Part shown: piece after piece, positions 46,224 to 56,212 of the stretch | How positions within the stretch are numbered: the stretch's first letter is position 1 | Layout of the letters: each line of letters begins with the position of its first letter | Source: Chloroflexota bacterium | Lineage (GTDB): Bacteria > Chloroflexota > Limnocylindria > P2-11E | DNA: 57,895 bases | Direction: 5' to 3' | Assembly (NCBI GenBank): GCA_005889405.1 | Contig: VBFY01000064.1 | Span: 1 to 57,895, forward strand | The notes under the pieces: generated by a model | Databases searched by the model: none | What the model was told of the DNA's origin: nothing | Seen by the model: only the letters and a program-made list of their open reading frames with translations | Position numbers and translations under genes: made by a program

Positions 46224-47495
<1,272 letters not shown>

Positions 47496-47498
47496 CGC

Positions 47499-48179
47499 CT
47501 AGCGGGCCGCCACTGGGACGCGTTCCTTGGGTTCCTTTGTTTCCTTCGGCTCCTTCTCCTCGGCCTGCTTGGCGATGGAGATGAGCGAGTCCTTCCCGAC
47601 GAAGATCTCGTCGATGATCCCGTAGGCCTTCGCCTCTTCCGCGCTCATGAAACGGTCGCGCTCCGAATCGCGGCGGACCTTCTCGACGTCCTGCCCCGAG
47701 TGATGCGCAAGGATTCGCGTGAGCTTGTCGACAAGGGTCTCGAGCTCCTTCACCTGGATGAGCACGTCAGGGGTGTTGCCGCGGAATCCGCCGGAGCCCT
47801 GGTGGATCATGATCCGTGAGTTCGGCAGCGCGTACCGCTTGCCCTTCGCCCCCGCCGAGACGAGCACCGCGGCCATCGACGCGGCCTGTCCGACGCATAT
47901 CGTGCTCACCGGCGCCTTGAGGTACTGCATCGTGTCGTAGATCGCGAGGCCGGCGGTCACGACGCCGCCGGGCGAGTTGACGTAGAGGTAGATGTCGCGC
48001 TCGGGGTCCTCCGACTCGAGGAACAGCAGCTGGGCGATGATGAGGTTCGCCATTGTGTCCTCGACGGCGTCCCCGATGAAGATGATCCGTTCCTTGAGCA
48101 GGCGCGAGAAGATGTCGTAGGCGCGCTCGCCTCGCCCGGATTGCTCGATGACCATCGGCACGAAATTCATCGCCGTCAC
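47499..48179 (-). CDS. clpP: ATP-dependent Clp protease proteolytic subunit ClpP
   Basis: 226-residue serine protease with the triad Ser101 (GQAASMAA), His126 ([10 protein letters not shown]) and Asp175 (ERDRFMSA). The C-terminal tail is longer than usual, with repeated KEPKE units. GTG 48179 is preferred because GAAGGTGA lies 6 bases upstream; ATG 48170 is the alternative. tig, the usual upstream neighbour, is separated from clpP here by 6.6 kb. Confidence 0.96.
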
Positions 48180-48304: not shown

Positions 48305-50809
48305 ATGCGTCGGTTCCCACGGTCGCTGGTCGTGTACATCGCGGCTTCAACGATCTACGCCGCGGTCATCTTCCTCGCTGTCCACGCCCTCTACGGCGTC
48401 GAGCTGGGCCGCGCCGGCCTCCGGCTGCCCGATCCCGAGGCCCTCATCGGCTCGATCGACAGCGTCTCGTTCATCGTGTGGCTGGGCATCAGCCTCATCG
48501 CCGGTACCGTCCTCTATCGCGTGGCGTCGGCGCTCGAGGCATCGCGTGGCGACAGCGCCGTCCGGGACGCCGAGATCGGCTCGATCTTCGCATTGAGCCA
48601 GGCGCTCTCCGGCTCGCTCGACCTCACCGAGATCACCCGTGAGTACCTCCGCAGTGCGCGGCGCGGGCTCGACGCGAGCGCGACGCTCGGTGTCCTCGTC
48701 CACGACGACGTCGCAGAGGCGTTCCGTCTCGTCGCCGAAGAGGGACCGCACACCGGCGCGCTGCTCGGCAACGTGTACTCCGTGTCTGGACTCCCGACGG
48801 CGATCCGCACGCGCGTCTTCGACCATCGCCAGTCGCTCGTGCTTCCCGACACCACCGGCGGCGGAGAGCAGTGGCGGCTCCTCGCGCGCGACCTGCCGAA
48901 CGCGCAGTGGATCCACTCGTTCGCCGCGCTCCCGCTGATATCGCAGGATCGCCTGGTCGGCGCGGTCGTCGCCGGCGCGGAGCAGGCCGGCACCCTGACC
49001 GCGGATCGCCTGCAGCTCGTCCTCGTGCTCGGCCAATTCGTCGCCGGTGCGATCCGCTCCTCGATGTCGCTCGCCGAAGCGCAGTCTCGTGCCGACCGCG
49101 AGGAGCTCGTGAGCCGCATCGCGCGTCGGGCGCGCGCCACGCTCGACCCAGACGAGGTGCTACGCGGTACGGTCGAGGAGCTTGGGAAAGCGCTGCGCGT
49201 CGACCGCGTGGTCGCCGCGACCGGCTCGACGCCCGACACGCTGCACGTCACCTACGAGTGGAACGCGCCGGGCATCGCGGCACATCCCGATGCACAGCGC
49301 GCCCTGCCCGTCGCGCGGCTCGCGGCCGAGACCGGTCGCACGGCCGTGGTACGCGACATCCTCGCGGACGCCCGGCTCGGAACAGCTGCCGGGTCGCGAT
49401 CGGGTGTTCGCTCGGTGATCGCGACGCCGATCCTCGTCGCGGGCGAGCTCGCGGGAACGCTGTCGCTCAACCAGACGACGGCACCGCGCGACTGGACGAC
49501 CGACGAGGTGCGGCTCGTCGAGGCGGTCGCGCGCGAGCTGCGGGTCGCGATCGAGACGGCGCGTCTCTTTCAGGCGCGCAAGGGTGAGAACGAGCGGCTC
49601 ATCGCGTTGCAGCGTGCGGCTGCTACGCTCGCCGCCCGCACTGATCCGAAGGAAGTGTTCGACATGATCCTCCGGAGCGCCGTGCAGCTGCTCGGCTCAG
49701 GCAGCGCGTCGCTCTACACCTGGGACGACGAAGCCGGAGTGCTGCGACTTGCGGAGAACTTCGACGCCGCGGGCCGCATGCCCGATGACCCCGTCCTGCG
49801 GCCGGGCGAAGGCGTCGTCGGTCGCGTGTTCGTCAGTCGCGAGCCGCTCATCGTCGAGGACTACCAGACATGGGAGGGTCGCACGCAGGTCGGCCAGGAG
49901 ACCGGCCTGCGCGCCTGCCTCGCCGTGCCGCTGGTGCGCAGCGGCCGCGCCCTCGGAGCCCTCGGCATCCGCTCCTACGAGGCGTCGGTGGCATACACCG
50001 AAGACGACGCCCAGATGCTCGCGCTGTTCGCCGACCAGGTCGCCGCCGCCCTCACGACGGTCGAGGCGTTCGGGCGACAGCGTCAGGCGGTCGAGCAATC
50101 GGAGCGGCTCAACCGCGCGAAAAGCGAGTTCGTCTCGATCGTCAGCCACGAGTTCCGCACGCCCCTCACGGGCATCCAGGGCTTCAGCGAGATCATGCGC
50201 GACGAGGAGCTCACGCTGGAGGAGATGCGGGAGTACGCCGGGGACATCAATAAGGACGCCCAGCGCCTGACCCGCATGATCAACGAGATGCTCGACCTCG
50301 ATCGCATGGAGTCGGGCCGCATGACGATCCATCCGGAGCGCCTCGACCTCAACGCGGTCGTCGGCGACGTCGCCGATCGTGTACGCCCGAACGCCCCGAA
50401 CCACACCCTGACCCTCGACCTGCAGTCCGACCTGCCAAAGGTCCACGCCGACCGCGATCGCATCACCCAGGTCGCGTCGAACCTCCTGAGCAACGCTGTC
50501 AAGTACTCGCCCACCGGCGGCCGGATCACGGTCACGACGCGTGTCGACGGGGACCAGCTTCGTCTCGACGTGCGCGACGAGGGCCTTGGCATCCCACCCG
50601 ACGCCCTCGAGACGATCTTCGAGCGCTACTCGCGCGTCGATTCACAGGCGACCAAGGACATCCAGGGCACCGGGCTCGGCCTTCCGATCGTCCGCCAGAT
50701 CATCCAGCTCCACGGCGGCAAGGTGTGGGCGGAGAGCGAGCTCGGCCGCGGCTCGGTGTTCCACGTCCTGCTGCCCCTTGCAGGCGCGGGCGCGCAGGTG
50801 GAGGCTTGA
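48305..50809 (+). CDS. membrane sensor histidine kinase with three GAF domains
   Basis: 835 residues. Two N-terminal helices (about 5-25, 48-68) are followed by three GAF-like domains (roughly 85-245, 255-420 and 430-590), a HisKA domain with His615 in SHEFRTPLTGIQGF and an HATPase domain (NLLSNAVKYSPTGG, DEGLGIPPDALE, GTGLGLPIV). ATG 48305 with GAGGAAGGGG upstream sets the start. No extracytosolic sensor domain lies between the helices. The next two genes carry receivers, so a phosphorelay is likely. Confidence 0.94.
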   Translation: MRRFPRSLVVYIAASTIYAAVIFLAVHALYGVELGRAGLRLPDPEALIGSIDSVSFIVWLGISLIAGTVLYRVASALEASRGDSAVRDAEIGSIFALSQALSGSLDLTEITREYLRSARRGLDASATLGVLVHDDVAEAFRLVAEEGPHTGALLGNVYSVSGLPTAIRTRVFDHRQSLVLPDTTGGGEQWRLLARDLPNAQWIHSFAALPLISQDRLVGAVVAGAEQAGTLTADRLQLVLVLGQFVAGAIRSSMSLAEAQSRADREELVSRIARRARATLDPDEVLRGTVEELGKALRVDRVVAATGSTPDTLHVTYEWNAPGIAAHPDAQRALPVARLAAETGRTAVVRDILADARLGTAAGSRSGVRSVIATPILVAGELAGTLSLNQTTAPRDWTTDEVRLVEAVARELRVAIETARLFQARKGENERLIALQRAAATLAARTDPKEVFDMILRSAVQLLGSGSASLYTWDDEAGVLRLAENFDAAGRMPDDPVLRPGEGVVGRVFVSREPLIVEDYQTWEGRTQVGQETGLRACLAVPLVRSGRALGALGIRSYEASVAYTEDDAQMLALFADQVAAALTTVEAFGRQRQAVEQSERLNRAKSEFVSIVSHEFRTPLTGIQGFSEIMRDEELTLEEMREYAGDINKDAQRLTRMINEMLDLDRMESGRMTIHPERLDLNAVVGDVADRVRPNAPNHTLTLDLQSDLPKVHADRDRITQVASNLLSNAVKYSPTGGRITVTTRVDGDQLRLDVRDEGLGIPPDALETIFERYSRVDSQATKDIQGTGLGLPIVRQIIQLHGGKVWAESELGRGSVFHVLLPLAGAGAQVEA

Positions 50810-50834
50810 GCGCGCTGATGGCGGTTCCCTTCGT

Positions 50835-51974
50835 TTGAGCGCCGACCTCATCCTCCTCGTCGATGACGAGGAGCAGATCCGCAAGCTCCTCGAGTCATCG
50901 CTCCTGCGACGTGGCTACGAGGTCGCCGTCGCGACCGATGGGATCGAGGCGCTGCGTCAGATCCGTACGAAGCTTCCCGACCTCATCGTCACCGATGTGA
51001 ACATGCCGAACATGAACGGCTTCGAGCTCACGCGCCGCCTGCGCGCCGATCACCGCACCGCGCGCGTGCCGATCGTGATGCTGTCGGCCCGCAAGCAGGC
51101 CGACGACATCCTGACCGGCTACGCGGAGGGCGCGGACGAGTACATCGCCAAGCCGGTCGAGATGGCGGTGCTCGCGGCCAAGATCGAGGTCCTTCTCAAG
51201 CGCATGAAGGCCACGGCCGGCGAGGTCATCAAGCGCGGGCGCGTCGTGGTGTTCCTGCGCGGCAAAGGGGGCGCCGGCGCGACGACGCTTGCCGTGAACA
51301 GCGCGGTCTCCCTCGCCGAGACGAAGATGTACAAGACCGCGGTCCTCGATCTCAACCTCGAGTTCGGGAACGTCGCTTCGCACCTCAACCTGAAGCCGCA
51401 GCACACGCTTTCCGATCTCGCCGAGATGCAGCCCGATCAGCTCGACGACGCGACCTTCGCGACCTTCATCGCGCAGGACCGCAGCGGCGTGCAGATCTGT
51501 GTCGGCGCGAGCGTGCCCGAGCACGCCGAGCTGGTGACAGTGAGCGCGGTGCAGCAGAGCCTCGACCGCCTCCGGCGAGGTAGCGACTACGTCATGGTCG
51601 ACACGCAGCCCTCGTTCACGCCGCTGACGCTCGCCGCGATCGACACCTCAGACGGCGCCTGCGTCGTGTGCGAGCCGCACGTCGCGTCGATGAAGACCGG
51701 CAGGGCGTGCCTCGACGTCCTCGAGAAGCTCTCGTTCCCCAAGGAGCGGACGCTCTTGGTGATCAACCGCACAACGCAGACGGGTCTCGACACCGACGAG
51801 GTCTCGCGCTACTTCAACCGGCGGCCCGACATCGTCGTGCCCTTCACTCCCGCATTCGATGACGCCGCGGACCGTGGCCGGCCGATCGTGGTGCTCCATG
51901 CCGACAATGCGGCATCGAAGCAGCTCCGCGATCTTGCCGCGAGGCTCACCGTCCTGGCTCCGGTGGGACGCTGA
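50835..51974 (+). CDS. receiver domain fused to a MinD/CpaE-type ATPase
   Basis: 379 residues. The receiver (1-120) has the acidic pair DDEE, phosphoacceptor Asp54 in LIVTDVNMPN and Lys in YIAKPVE. A ParA/MinD-type ATPase follows (about 135-370) with the deviant Walker A LRGKGGAGATTLAVN and VMVDTQPSFTPL. The order matches CpaE/TadZ, which places the tad pilus or other polar machines, but no tad/cpa genes are in the window. TTG 50835 lies just after the kinase stop, so it is probably cotranscribed with the kinase. Confidence 0.9.
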   Translation: MSADLILLVDDEEQIRKLLESSLLRRGYEVAVATDGIEALRQIRTKLPDLIVTDVNMPNMNGFELTRRLRADHRTARVPIVMLSARKQADDILTGYAEGADEYIAKPVEMAVLAAKIEVLLKRMKATAGEVIKRGRVVVFLRGKGGAGATTLAVNSAVSLAETKMYKTAVLDLNLEFGNVASHLNLKPQHTLSDLAEMQPDQLDDATFATFIAQDRSGVQICVGASVPEHAELVTVSAVQQSLDRLRRGSDYVMVDTQPSFTPLTLAAIDTSDGACVVCEPHVASMKTGRACLDVLEKLSFPKERTLLVINRTTQTGLDTDEVSRYFNRRPDIVVPFTPAFDDAADRGRPIVVLHADNAASKQLRDLAARLTVLAPVGR

Positions 51975-53301
51975 CATCCGCGTCCGGTTCTGGGGAACGC
52001 GCGGCTCGATCTCCGCCGCCGGCCCCGAGACGCTTCGCTACGGCGGTAACACGCCCTGCGTCGAGGTCACGACCGACGACGGCACGCTCCTCGTCTTCGA
52101 CTGCGGCACCGGCGCGCGGAAGCTCGGGCTCGCGCTCGCGAGCAAAGGACCGGTGCGGCTCCATCTGCTGCTCTCCCACACGCACGCGGACCACATCCAG
52201 GGTCTCCCGTTCTTCCTCCCCGCGTTCACTCCCGGCAGCCACATCACGGTCTATGGGCCGTCCGGGATGGACCGCGGGCTCACGACGGCGGTCGCCGGAA
52301 CGATGGACTACGCGTACTTTCCCGTGCCCCTCAAGTCGCTTCCCGCCCAGGTGGACTTCGTCGAGCTCGGCGAGACAGAGTTCTCGATCGGCGGCATCAA
52401 GCTCCGCACCCAATTCTTAAATCACACCTCGCCGTGCATCGGCTACCGCGTGACCGCGGGCTCGGCCGCGCTCGTGTATGCGACCGATCACGAGGCCCAC
52501 AGCACGCCGCACTGGCGGGCCGATCGCGGGCCGGACGTCTTCGATCCGGCGCTCCTCGCGCACAACGGCGACACGCGGCACGCCGCGTTCCTGACCGCCG
52601 CGGATGTGGTCATCCACGACGCGCAGTACGGGACCGCCGATTACCCGAACAAGGCGGGCTGGGGCCACAGCACCGTCGAGTACGCCGTCGACATCGCAGT
52701 CGCCGCGCGCGCGAAGACCCTCGTGCTGTTCCATCACGACCCAGACCGCGACGACGGTGGTGTCGACGACCTGACCGCGGTGGCCGCGAGCCGCGTCGTG
52801 GCGTCGAAGCGACCCCTTCGCGTCGTCGCCGCGGCGGAAGGCGAAGAGCTCGTCCTCGCGGAGGGACCGCATGCGCGTACGACCGACGTCGAGCCCGCCC
52901 CAGCTGCGATGCCCGAACGCGCGCGCATCCTCGTCGCCGACGACGATGTCGCGCTCGTGCGCATCCTCGAGGCCGTCCTCCGCGTCGACGGTTATGACGT
53001 CGATGTCGCGTTCGACGGTGAGGAGATGCTGAGCAAGGCGGCGCTTGCCGCGTACGACCTCGTCCTCGTCGACATCCAGATGCCGAACTTGGATGGCCTC
53101 TCCGCGTGCAGACGACTTCGAGCGCTCGACGGCTACCGCGAGACGCCGTTCGTCGTGCTGACCGCGCGGACGCGGCAGGATGACATGTCCGCGGCCTTCG
53201 ATGCCGGCATCACCGACTACATCCGCAAACCGTTCGCCTTGCCGCAGGTGCGCGCCCGCGTACGCTCGTGGCTCGCGCGCGGCGCCGCGCGTCAGGTGTG
53301 A
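51934..53301 (+). CDS. metallo-beta-lactamase-fold hydrolase fused to a receiver domain
   Basis: About 455 residues. The N-terminal domain begins RVRFWGTRGSISAAG and has the metal motif SHTHADHIQG (His82, His84, Asp86, His87), later NHTSPCIGY, ATDHEAHS and FHHDPDRDD; it resembles PhnP or class II cAMP phosphodiesterase types. The last ~115 residues are a receiver (RILVADDDVALVR, LVLVDIQMPNLDG, DYIRKPF). No good start exists; TTG 51934, 41 bases inside the previous gene, is chosen. The fusion and the tight linkage suggest phospho-controlled hydrolysis. Confidence 0.88.
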   Translation: MPRGSPSWLRWDADIRVRFWGTRGSISAAGPETLRYGGNTPCVEVTTDDGTLLVFDCGTGARKLGLALASKGPVRLHLLLSHTHADHIQGLPFFLPAFTPGSHITVYGPSGMDRGLTTAVAGTMDYAYFPVPLKSLPAQVDFVELGETEFSIGGIKLRTQFLNHTSPCIGYRVTAGSAALVYATDHEAHSTPHWRADRGPDVFDPALLAHNGDTRHAAFLTAADVVIHDAQYGTADYPNKAGWGHSTVEYAVDIAVAARAKTLVLFHHDPDRDDGGVDDLTAVAASRVVASKRPLRVVAAAEGEELVLAEGPHARTTDVEPAPAAMPERARILVADDDVALVRILEAVLRVDGYDVDVAFDGEEMLSKAALAAYDLVLVDIQMPNLDGLSACRRLRALDGYRETPFVVLTARTRQDDMSAAFDAGITDYIRKPFALPQVRARVRSWLARGAARQV

Positions 53302-53355: not shown

Positions 53356-54339
53356 GTGGGTGAGTTGAACGAGACCCAGCGCTATCTCATCGACGAGCAC
53401 ATCGAGGAATATCAAGAAGGGTTGATCCCGAGGCGCGAGCTGTTGCGCAGGGTGACACTCATCTCCGGCAGCGCCGCGCTTGCGGCCGTGATCGTCGCAG
53501 CGTGCGGACCGGTGACACCCGCGAGCTCGGGCCCGGCGACACCGACCGTCGCGACAGCGAGCAGCAGTCCCGCGCCGACGATCGGACCCTACGCCACGCC
53601 GCCCGCGCAGGCGACGACCGACGGCGTCACCGTCAGGCCCGATGACCCACGCATCACCATCTCGAAGCCAGATGTCAAAGGACCGGATGGCGCGTCGCTC
53701 CTGGCGTACATGGCGCGTCCGGCGGGCACGGCAAGAGTTCCGGGGATGATCGTGATCCACGAGAACCGCGGCCAGACGCCGCACATCCAGGATGTCGTGC
53801 GCCGCACCGCGACAGCGGGATTCGCCGCGATCAACATCGACCTCGTCGCGCGCGCAGGCGGCTATGAGAAGCTCACCGACCAGGCCGCGTACAACGCGGA
53901 GCTCGGCAGGCTCACGCTGGCGGGAAAGCTCGCGGACCACAGCGCCACGCTCAATTACCTCAAAGCGCAATCGACTGGGGCAGTCGGCGTGGTCGGCTTC
54001 TGCTTCGGAGGTGGCGAGGTGTGGAGCATCCTCGCCGGCGGCGTCGACGTGAAGGCCGCGGTGCCGTTCTACGGGCCACAGCCGACGAACTTCGCCGACA
54101 TCGCGAAGACGAAGGCAGCCACGTCGGCGGTGTACGCCGAGCTCGACACGCGTATCACGGCCACGGCGCCGCAGATGGAGGACGCGCTCAAGAAGGCCGG
54201 CGTCCCATATCAGATCACCGTCTATCCCGGCGTGAACCATGCGTTCCACAACGACACCGGCGGGACGCGGTACGACGCTGTGCAGGCGGCCAAGGCGTGG
54301 GTCGCGACGATCGAGTGGTTCCGGAAGTACCTCGCCTAG
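53356..54339 (+). CDS. Tat-exported lipoprotein, dienelactone hydrolase family
   Basis: 327 residues. The N-terminus has a twin-arginine motif (PRRELLRRVTL) and a lipobox IVAAC near residue 50, then a Thr/Ser/Pro linker, which fits a Tat lipoprotein. The alpha/beta-hydrolase core has nucleophile Cys216 in GFCFGGGE, Glu in IHENRG and His295 in NHAFHND, as in carboxymethylenebutenolidase. GTG 53356 follows AAGGGGAAG. Substrate unknown. Confidence 0.9.
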   Translation: MGELNETQRYLIDEHIEEYQEGLIPRRELLRRVTLISGSAALAAVIVAACGPVTPASSGPATPTVATASSSPAPTIGPYATPPAQATTDGVTVRPDDPRITISKPDVKGPDGASLLAYMARPAGTARVPGMIVIHENRGQTPHIQDVVRRTATAGFAAINIDLVARAGGYEKLTDQAAYNAELGRLTLAGKLADHSATLNYLKAQSTGAVGVVGFCFGGGEVWSILAGGVDVKAAVPFYGPQPTNFADIAKTKAATSAVYAELDTRITATAPQMEDALKKAGVPYQITVYPGVNHAFHNDTGGTRYDAVQAAKAWVATIEWFRKYLA

Positions 54340-54754: not shown

Positions 54755-56212
54755 TTACTTCTTCAGCATCGCCCGCAGCGCCTCGCGTCCCTCTGGCGTC
54801 GCTTTGGACGTCTCCGGAACGATGATCTTGGGCTCCTCCGGCTTCGGCGCGGCGCCGTGGAAGTTCGTGGCGTCGCCGCCGGCCTTCTTGATCAGCTCAG
54901 CCTCGGCGTCAGGTGACTCGAGCCCGATGAGCTTGTCGACCGTCTTGCGGTTGCGGATCGATCGCGCGAAAGATGCCAGCACCAGCGGATCACGGAGCGC
55001 GCGCGGATCCTGCTGCGCGAGGGGCGTCATCGCGACCTGGGCCGCGAGCTCGTTCGACGACACCGTGATGCCTTCCTTCTTCGCGAGGGCATCGAGAACG
55101 AGGATCGACTTCGCGCGTTTCTCCGCCGCCGGCTTCCACTCGGCGCGGATCTCGTCTTCCGTCTTGCGCGCCTGCAGCAGGAACTGTTCGAAGGTGATCC
55201 CCTGCTCCCGAACGCGGGCCTTGAGATCGGCGACCATGTGGTCGAGCTCGTCGTGCACGATGACCTCGGGCACCTCCACCGTCGCGGTATCGACGGCGTG
55301 CTCGAGCATCTTGTCCGCGGCGGTGTCACGCGCTTCGTGGAACGCGGAATGCGCGAGCTCGTTCTTCACCTCGCGCCGGAGGTCGTTGATGTTCGCGACG
55401 CCCACGGTCTTGGCGAAATCATCGTCGAGGGCGGGCAGGACCTTCTCCGAGACCTGGCTCGCGCGGATGGAGAACGTGCCCTTCTTGCCGCGAAGCTCGT
55501 CCGAAGCGGTGTCGCCAGCGAACTCGAGCTCGGCGGTCTTGCTGTCGCCCGACTTCAGGCCGACGAACGCCTCGCCCAGGCCGGCGATCGACGTCGCGCG
55601 ACCGGCCTCGACGTGCGCATTGCGCGCGAAGGGCGGAAGCTGCCTCCCGTCGACCGTGACGTCGATGTCGACCATGACGATGTCGCCCGTCTTCGCCGGG
55701 CGGTCGACCGGTTGGAGCTGAGCGTGCGACTCACGCATCGCCTCGATGGTCTTGTCGATCTCCTCCGTGCTCGGCGGTGTGGGCTCGATGCTCGCGCCGT
55801 GTGCGGCGTAGTCGCCGAGCGTCACCTCCGGCCGCACCGTGACCGTCGCGGTCCAGCGCACCGGCTTGCCGGGCTCGAGCTGCGTGAGCTCGACCTTGGG
55901 ATCCTCGAGCGGCTCGAGCGCCTCGACCTCGACGATCTCGCGATAGGTCTGGTCGATGAGATCCTCTGCGGCTTCCGCCCACAGGTGCTCTGCGCCGTAG
56001 CTCCGCTCGTACATCGCGCGCGGCGCCTTGCCCGGACGGAAGCCCGGGATCTTGGCCTTCTGGTTGTGACGCTCGAAAACGCGATCGGCCTGACGCGCGA
56101 GCCGCTCGGCGTCGACCTCCACCTCGAGCGAGACCTTCGATCCCGCGTCGCGGCGGATGGTGTGGCGGAACGAGCGTTCGGTGGGCGCAGATGTGGTGAG
56201 AGCGTCGGACAT
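54755..56212 (-). CDS. tig: trigger factor (ribosome-associated chaperone and prolyl isomerase)
   Basis: 485 residues. The ribosome-binding domain has the signature IPGFRPGKAP (normally GFRxGxxP) near residue 55, a central FKBP-type domain (about 175-265: GDIVMVDIDVTVDG) and a long helical C-terminal chaperone region, ending in an acidic-basic tail. Binds near the ribosome exit tunnel. In most bacteria tig precedes clpP-clpX directly; here 6.6 kb of other genes separate them. Confidence 0.95.
   Translation of the reverse strand: MSDALTTSAPTERSFRHTIRRDAGSKVSLEVEVDAERLARQADRVFERHNQKAKIPGFRPGKAPRAMYERSYGAEHLWAEAAEDLIDQTYREIVEVEALEPLEDPKVELTQLEPGKPVRWTATVTVRPEVTLGDYAAHGASIEPTPPSTEEIDKTIEAMRESHAQLQPVDRPAKTGDIVMVDIDVTVDGRQLPPFARNAHVEAGRATSIAGLGEAFVGLKSGDSKTAELEFAGDTASDELRGKKGTFSIRASQVSEKVLPALDDDFAKTVGVANINDLRREVKNELAHSAFHEARDTAADKMLEHAVDTATVEVPEVIVHDELDHMVADLKARVREQGITFEQFLLQARKTEDEIRAEWKPAAEKRAKSILVLDALAKKEGITVSSNELAAQVAMTPLAQQDPRALRDPLVLASFARSIRNRKTVDKLIGLESPDAEAELIKKAGGDATNFHGAAPKPEEPKIIVPETSKATPEGREALRAMLKK

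Follow-up and report, generated by a model that had tools for sequence, protein, structure and literature searches.

Several described systems resemble parts of the locus reported here. In Dictyostelium, RegA is a well-characterised receiver-controlled cAMP phosphodiesterase, and GbpA and GbpB are MBL phosphodiesterases with cyclic nucleotide (cNMP)-binding domains (PMC11988041). The motif [T/S]HXHXDH has been defined as the signature of atypical class-II phosphodiesterases (PMC9293780), and YhfI cleaves cAMP and cGMP (PMC9117128). At the level of translation, infC (ATT/ATC) and Streptomyces sigR (GTC) provide examples of non-NTG start codons under the control of IF3 (PMC5472188). Here we examine a block of three genes from an uncultured Chloroflexota-type bacterium, contained in a window (the whole stretch of DNA that was analysed) of 57,895 nucleotides. 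An original prediction for this block, made from the DNA alone, was partly confirmed in its observations and partly supported in its interpretation. We found neither MBL-REC proteins nor the three-gene block described in the literature searched, although such a description may exist elsewhere. The block and its borders are as follows:

47499..48179, minus strand: clpP, the divergent left border, followed by clpX (46224-47495)
48305..50809, plus strand: membrane sensor histidine kinase (HK) with two predicted TM helices (aa 6-35 and 46-75), three GAF domains, HisKA (H615) and HATPase_c
50835..51974, plus strand: REC-CpaE, a CpaE/TadZ-type MinD-like ATPase with a receiver (Asp D54) and a TTG start, assigned by Pfam, motifs and fold
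51976..53301, plus strand: MBL-REC, an MBL-fold hydrolase with a C-terminal receiver (D366), 441 aa counted from AUC
51976..51978, plus strand: putative AUC start of MBL-REC, 1 base past the ATPase TGA
53356..54339, plus strand: dienelactone-hydrolase-family protein, 3' of the block, with a twin-arginine and lipobox-like signal
54755..56212, minus strand: tig (trigger factor; NCBIfam TIGR00115, 324.8 bits), the convergent right border

Pfam matches and intact motifs bore out the predicted arrangement of three adjacent plus-strand genes, in both domain content and order, and every catalytic and phosphorylation residue is present in the three proteins with the sole exception of the P-loop Lys of the ATPase. 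The kinase matches GAF three times, HisKA (1.4e-20) and HATPase_c (1.1e-32), and retains an intact H box (SHEFRTPL, H615) together with the N, G1 and G2 boxes, while both receivers carry their Asp, Thr/Ser and Lys residues. The block had been described as a complete phosphorelay; one kinase and two receivers with intact residues are indeed present, but the term is loose, as domain searches of the three proteins returned no match to an Hpt or second His phosphotransfer module. As judged from their sequences, the parts are those of a branched two-component set, consisting of one kinase and two receivers, and not of a His-Asp-His-Asp phosphorelay.

Flanked by clpP and tig, the block shows conserved synteny across three genera belonging to a single family, and its kinase orthologs at the same locus share 47-90% identity. 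Its gene order, retained at the same place in three genera, is not due to chance, and the conserved synteny backs the prediction of a single signalling block; the refuting outcome, an order not shared by relatives, was not encountered within the family. The dienelactone-hydrolase-family protein, which has a single hydrophobic segment (aa 29-56) and is usually co-located with the block, is probably encoded in the same operon, yet outside the signalling core. The block is modular: three genomes (G013, G016 and G018) have kept the kinase and ATPase and have no MBL-REC, kinase and ATPase have been deleted in G006, and in one genome an in-frame deletion joins the start of the kinase to the end of the ATPase. 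Together these losses make an obligate joint function unlikely. Beyond the family, HK/REC-CpaE pairs are found in three genomes of other classes (G108, G098 and G259), including a kinase in G108 that is 43% identical to that of the window and lies upstream of REC-CpaE, and MBL-REC and REC-MBL fusions occur in many phyla, though not next to CpaE there.

The latter observations bear on whether MBL-REC belongs to the unit at all. The functional unit might comprise only the kinase and REC-CpaE, with MBL-REC a chance passenger, perhaps phosphorylated by another kinase, and both the genomes with pairs lacking MBL-REC and the failure to find MBL-REC next to CpaE in any lineage examined outside the family speak for this reading. 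Against it, MBL-REC directly follows the ATPase gene in each of the five genomes examined from the genus, as well as in G008, G022, G023 and G012, and it has been lost rather than recently gained; we consider the passenger scenario somewhat unlikely, and retain a branched operon of three genes as our preferred reading.

The third gene also appears to begin in an unusual manner. The 41-base overlap with the ATPase gene originally predicted requires a TTG at 51934, which is replaced by TCG in the 95% identical ortholog of G004, and no NTG occurs there in the orthologs; the overlap is not supported, the conserved start being an ATC at 51976, 1 base past the ATPase stop. In genera g1 and g5, 8/8 orthologs have a conserved near-cognate codon (ATC or ATT) at the homologous position, and several of these orthologs have no usable ATG, GTG or TTG for MBL-REC, while the upstream NTGs that exist in the window and in G004 are not conserved. 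Orthologs of genus g3 have ATG or GTG at this position, and among orthologs the MBL-REC start falls 1-3 nt past the ATPase stop. As a control we used neighbouring genes, for which an NTG was found near the start in ~90 of 93 instances, because a genome-wide control based on stop-to-stop ORFs was too noisy, overlapping frames appearing conserved in high-GC DNA. On this comparison of sequences the start codon of MBL-REC appears to be AUC, which is very rare in that role. Limisphaerales homologs independently exhibit apparent AUC or AUU starts. It could be argued that the AUC start is apparent only and that frameshifting or readthrough on the ATPase gene gives rise to MBL-REC, given that the two genes touch and that in G022 and G023 they share one frame with a single stop codon between them. 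However, the frame relation varies by ortholog (counted from the stop's first base, the ATC is 4, 5 or 6 nt away), the ATPase stop is variously TGA, TAA or TAG, no conserved slippery site was seen, and G006 and G012 have ATG or GTG at the residue homologous to the AUC start, all of which render such a mechanism most improbable. An AUC start would mean that the gene is mis-annotated by standard rules, and would offer a concrete place at which to test regulated non-canonical initiation.

MBL-REC matches Lactamase_B_2 (1.6e-16) and Response_reg (4.2e-26), and the predicted full HxHxDH site holds, in the form of an intact SHTHADH motif followed by downstream His/Asp ligands conserved among 28 homologs. 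This site is common to the whole MBL superfamily, which counts against a reading specific to cyclic nucleotides. Structure prediction, which had been proposed as a check, yielded an AlphaFold model (pLDDT 87, pTM 0.87) with an RNase Z-like (TMt 0.78) and YhfI-like (TMt 0.72-0.77) fold plus a receiver. In its PF12706 MBL fold, [T/S]HxHxDH motif and full set of metal ligands, the domain has the features of an atypical class-II phosphodiesterase; besides YhfI, RNase Z, BA1088 and PhnP are among its best matches by sequence and structure.

Links to cyclic nucleotides come in addition from the wider family. In 17 genomes a solo MBL paralog is encoded 2-3 kb downstream of, and on the same strand as, a PF00211 cyclase, preceded, where checked, by CHASE2-cyclase and GAF-HD-GYP genes; relatives of the MBL are fused to cNMP_binding and GGDEF or to cNMP_binding and HTH_Crp domains; and in four Gemmatimonadota cNMP-domain matches adjoin the MBL. 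The genome as a whole has 14 cyclase and 15 cNMP-binding matches. The cyclase-linked paralog, the domain fusions and the class-II signature back the suggested connection to a small messenger. The solo paralog is distant from MBL-REC in the tree and only 43-47% identical, so the two need not share a substrate, and the block lies at least 8 kb from the cyclase locus in relatives, without adjoining it, which also counts against the cyclic-nucleotide reading. An origin of MBL-REC by local duplication of the solo MBL ~8 kb away is ruled out by the well-separated clades of the tree. Receivers join this MBL at either end, differing by phylum, which argues that phospho-control of the domain recurs.

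The matches to RNase Z and PhnP raise the question of substrate. The MBL might be a receiver-gated, RNase Z/PhnP-like nuclease or phosphodiesterase acting on RNA or another metabolite rather than on cyclic nucleotides. In favour of this, RNase Z is the closest solved structure by both sequence and fold, and a search of the genome yielded no RNase Z scoring above the curated cut-off. We regard this reading as quite unlikely, since two other MBLs of the genome outscore MBL-REC in the same RNase Z search and its partners by neighbourhood and fusion are cyclic-nucleotide modules; identity with RNase Z itself is not supported, the scores of 51 and 79 bits falling far short of the 293 bits (292.95) set as cut-off for the TIGR02651 equivalog. 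A cyclic nucleotide remains our preferred substrate.

The second gene encodes matches to Response_reg (5.8e-30) and AAA_31 (2.2e-10). Its GKGGAGATT motif keeps the first signature Lys (K144), but the P-loop Lys is replaced by Ala (aa 149), at a position occupied by A, T, C or S, and never K, in nine orthologs; fold matches include 3ea0, 3fkq and MinD. With a receiver-like domain joined to a MinD/ParA-like ATPase with a deviant Walker A motif, the protein is CpaE/TadZ-like by fold and sequence, a role in localisation, and with it the suggested joining of cell-pole positioning to messenger hydrolysis, being a candidate only. The predicted absence of tad genes is borne out for the window and its flanks, but the genome does have tad-type loci with CpaEs of their own: T2SSE/T2SSF and CpaE genes are located on two contigs (C12 and C90), and on a third (C41) a CpaE adjoins CpaB/RcpC and Tad-domain genes. 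That paralogs of the window ATPase sit in tad-type loci, that the C41 paralog is full-length (~45% identical), and that a homolog in another genome (G409) adjoins TadE and RcpC could indicate a displaced Tad-pilus component, through which the operon regulates the Tad machines of other loci in the genome. We find this unlikely, in view of the CpaE genes that the C12 and C90 loci already possess and of the HK/REC-CpaE pairs of other classes, of which those in G108 and G098 had no tad genes detected within flanks of up to ~9 kb. The operon further shows CpaE-type proteins occurring away from tad loci, as apparent outputs of dedicated sensor kinases.

Taken together, we favour a branched two-component operon in which the final gene encodes a cyclic-nucleotide phosphodiesterase under the control of phosphorylation, a view we hold to be about evenly balanced between right and wrong. 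The kinase would sense a ligand through its TM/GAF part, autophosphorylate at H615 and phosphorylate D54 of REC-CpaE and D366 of MBL-REC. Both outputs would be switched in this way: the CpaE module in its nucleotide-dependent dimerisation or its binding of partners, and the MBL module in its hydrolysis of a cyclic nucleotide, for which cAMP and cGMP are the likeliest candidates. Translation of MBL-REC from AUC by reinitiation after the ATPase stop might hold its level low. A more far-reaching version, which we put forward as very doubtful, is that one kinase, via two receivers, sets both the site of assembly of a CpaE-type switch and the rate of cyclic-nucleotide destruction, while a conserved AUC start that is coupled to ATPase termination keeps the stoichiometry of the phosphodiesterase low, and AUC/AUU starts are a recurrent control of the MBL family, as they are seen independently in Limisphaerales homologs. 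The operon supplies an MBL-REC whose candidate kinase is adjacent.

Comparison with known systems places each part of the operon near, and apart from, a described family. REC-CpaE shares with CpaE/TadZ proteins a receiver-like N-terminal domain, a MinD-like ATPase without the P-loop Lys and a two-domain match to 3fkq, deposited under the label NtrC-like protein, which we take to be TadZ of Eubacterium rectale. Whereas canonical CpaE/TadZ receivers are atypical, that of the window keeps its phospho-acceptor Asp, and its gene belongs to a kinase operon, not to a tad locus. The start of MBL-REC resembles those of infC and sigR (PMC5472188) in being conserved, non-canonical and missed by standard gene-finding rules, but this putative AUC start belongs to a two-component output gene right behind an upstream stop. 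Like the atypical class-II cNMP phosphodiesterases Rv1339, YhfI and C. glutamicum CpdA (PMC9293780), MBL-REC combines PF12706 with [T/S]HxHxDH and proximity to RNase Z; unlike them it is fused to a receiver, and with ~20% identity in the fold alignment its hydrolytic activity is predicted only. Two relatives (L151 and L154) pair the MBL catalytic domain with cNMP-binding domains as in GbpA and GbpB (PMC11988041; GbpA compared by description only), while MBL-REC of the window carries a receiver and no cNMP domains. Finally, the proposed logic is that of Dictyostelium RegA (PMC11988041), where histidine kinases feed a phosphodiesterase that is controlled by a phosphorylated receiver within its own chain. 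MBL-REC would be a bacterial counterpart of RegA in logic; RegA differs in its catalytic domain, which is of class I and unrelated, in the N-terminal position of its receiver and in having the relay protein RdeA. If this is true, the MBL-REC and REC-MBL proteins of several phyla would represent bacterial receiver-controlled cyclic-nucleotide phosphodiesterases built on a fold unrelated to that of RegA.

The three plus-strand genes at the centre of this analysis are flanked by clpP/clpX, which diverge from them, and by tig, which converges on them; the window constitutes the whole of contig C78 of the 3.05 Mb source genome (G000). Each of the domains originally named was recovered by Pfam, and the metallo-hydrolase (MBL) domain retains its full HxHxDH site.

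Features of the signalling block and its borders (window positions)
46224-48179, divergent from the block: clpP/clpX, left border
48305-50809, plus strand: histidine kinase (HK), two predicted TM helices, SHEFRTPL with H615, intact N and G boxes
50835-51974, plus strand: receiver-ATPase (REC-CpaE), receiver D54, GKGGAGATT
51976-53301, plus strand: MBL-REC, hydrolase SHTHADH, receiver D366
53356-54339, plus strand: dienelactone-hydrolase-family (DLH) gene, directly after MBL-REC
54755-56212, convergent with the block: tig, right border

Because Hpt is absent from the three proteins, the block is a branched two-component set rather than the complete phosphorelay of the original prediction. AlphaFold modelling gave a confident two-domain fold for MBL-REC (pLDDT 87, pTM 0.87) and confident domains with a less certain relative orientation for the REC-ATPase (pLDDT 87, pTM 0.65). 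In bacteria, tig and clpP-clpX are often neighbours in one operon; here the plus-strand block separates them, an interruption found throughout the family.

Among 60 relatives, MBL-REC orthologs (at least 62% identical) were found in three genera of one family (g1, g3 and g5), within which the three-gene order is kept where contigs permit, as clpX-clpP-HK-(extra REC)-REC/ATPase-MBL/REC-(DLH)-tig. Judged from these sequences, the block is old in the family yet modular. Genomes G013, G016 and G018 have retained HK and the REC-ATPase and lost MBL-REC, with DLH directly following the ATPase gene in G013 and G016. In the g3 genome G006 (L025:880-1403), the HK N-terminus is fused in frame to the last ~25 ATPase residues directly before MBL-REC, which may represent the scar of an in-frame deletion of ~3 kb or a misassembly of this metagenome-assembled genome. 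The DLH-family gene, whose product carries RRELLRR and a lipobox-like AAC, is kept behind the block in most genomes, including some that lack MBL-REC.

Beyond the class, HK directly precedes REC-CpaE in G108, G098 and G259, the G108 proteins being 43% (HK) and 43% (ATPase) identical to those of the window over their full length. MBL-REC also occurs in other Chloroflexota, Proteobacteria, Nitrospira, Actinomycetota, Verrucomicrobia and others, sometimes close to a kinase; no CpaE was found beside it in the other lineages examined. In one large set the receiver follows the MBL domain, and the reverse arrangement (REC-MBL) is encoded at 18 loci, most of them from Verrucomicrobia; the MBL tree requires several receiver gains or losses.

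The ATPase domain structurally matches 3ea0, MinD and the two-domain 3fkq. It retains the first signature lysine, but at the P-loop lysine position all nine orthologs carry A, T, C or S, a deviation shared with CpaE/TadZ-type proteins. That tad genes are absent holds for the window and fails for the genome: contigs C12 and C90 carry T2SSE/T2SSF genes plus CpaE-like proteins, and the closest paralog of the REC-ATPase (~45%), on C41, adjoins CpaB/RcpC and a Tad-domain protein. REC-CpaE is likely a CpaE-type switch turned output of a dedicated kinase. C12 also carries a second T2SSE gene (G000:C12:38897-42721, L037), ~6 kb away from its tad-type T2SSE/T2SSF/CpaE set.

Sequence profile and fold both place the MBL domain closest to RNase Z, BA1088, YhfI and PhnP; the curated cut-off for RNase Z was not reached. 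It combines PF12706 with a [T/S]HxHxDH signature, the defining traits of atypical class-II cyclic-nucleotide (cNMP) phosphodiesterases (PMC9293780), and YhfI prefers cAMP/cGMP as substrates (PMC9117128). In 17 genomes a paralog without receiver (solo MBL) lies 2-3 kb downstream of a PF00211 cyclase on the same strand; in the loci read in detail, the cyclase bears CHASE2 and a GAF-HD-GYP gene lies in between. Chloroflexota relatives extend into cNMP_binding+GGDEF or cNMP_binding+HTH_Crp, at four Gemmatimonadota loci a cNMP-domain match immediately precedes MBL, and the source genome holds 14 cyclase and 15 cNMP-binding matches. Gene context and signature together suggest a cNMP phosphodiesterase, an association rather than proof of substrate. 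One putative operon on C56 (G000:C56:33900-38800, L027; CHASE2-cyclase, GAF-HD-GYP, solo MBL, YtfJ-like) places a likely phosphodiesterase alongside cNMP synthesis and an HD-GYP domain.

The proposed 41-base overlap between the ATPase and MBL-REC genes requires TTG at 51934, which is not a start codon in orthologs. Alignment of ten orthologs revealed ATC or ATT at the family's usual Met position in all eight from g1 and g5; both g3 orthologs have ATG or GTG there. In G001 the nearest in-frame stop lies 18 codons upstream, with no ATG/GTG/TTG/CTG thence to codon 76. G022 and G023 have a stop two codons before this position, and their first NTG of whatever type, a CTG, does not occur until codon 38, within the MBL core. 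In G008 a CTG precedes the position by two codons. The codon at the Met position falls 1-3 nt past the ATPase stop, with three frame relations and three different stop codons among orthologs; this makes frameshift or readthrough unlikely and leaves reinitiation as the natural interpretation. Judged from its conservation, AUC would be the codon from which MBL-REC is translated after the ATPase stop. Neighbouring genes at these loci served as a control: an NTG is found close to the start in ~90/93 instances, the exceptions being tig in G013 and a cupin gene in G001 and G013; ATC and ATA candidates are seen in G013 tig (L160, about 11.6 kb, minus strand) and G001 cupin (L019, start near 638). Non-NTG starts may therefore be more general in the family. 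AUY starts are also apparent in a second phylum, where nine Limisphaerales-type MBL homologs (L119, L120, L127, L132, L136, L137, L141, L143, L145) show an in-frame stop and then a conserved ATC/ATT-AAR at a constant place before the fold, eight lacking ATG/GTG/TTG between the stop and codon 7 or 19.

In the most likely scheme, HK would phosphorylate both receivers: that of REC-CpaE would govern the state of a CpaE-type dimer, and that of MBL-REC the activity of a cNMP phosphodiesterase produced at low level. The order and domains of the genes, their intact residues, and the conservation and separability of the block are seen directly in the sequences; from these we infer which receivers the kinase phosphorylates, the substrate, the direction of control, any localisation and AUC initiation. 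Non-NTG starts have precedents in infC (ATT in E. coli, ATC in Streptomyces) and sigR (GTC), at both of which IF3 represses initiation (PMC5472188). The parts are individually familiar; what is distinctive, and directly open to experimental test, is their combination in one block, MBL/receiver fusions that recur and have a cyclic-nucleotide context, and a conserved AUC start.
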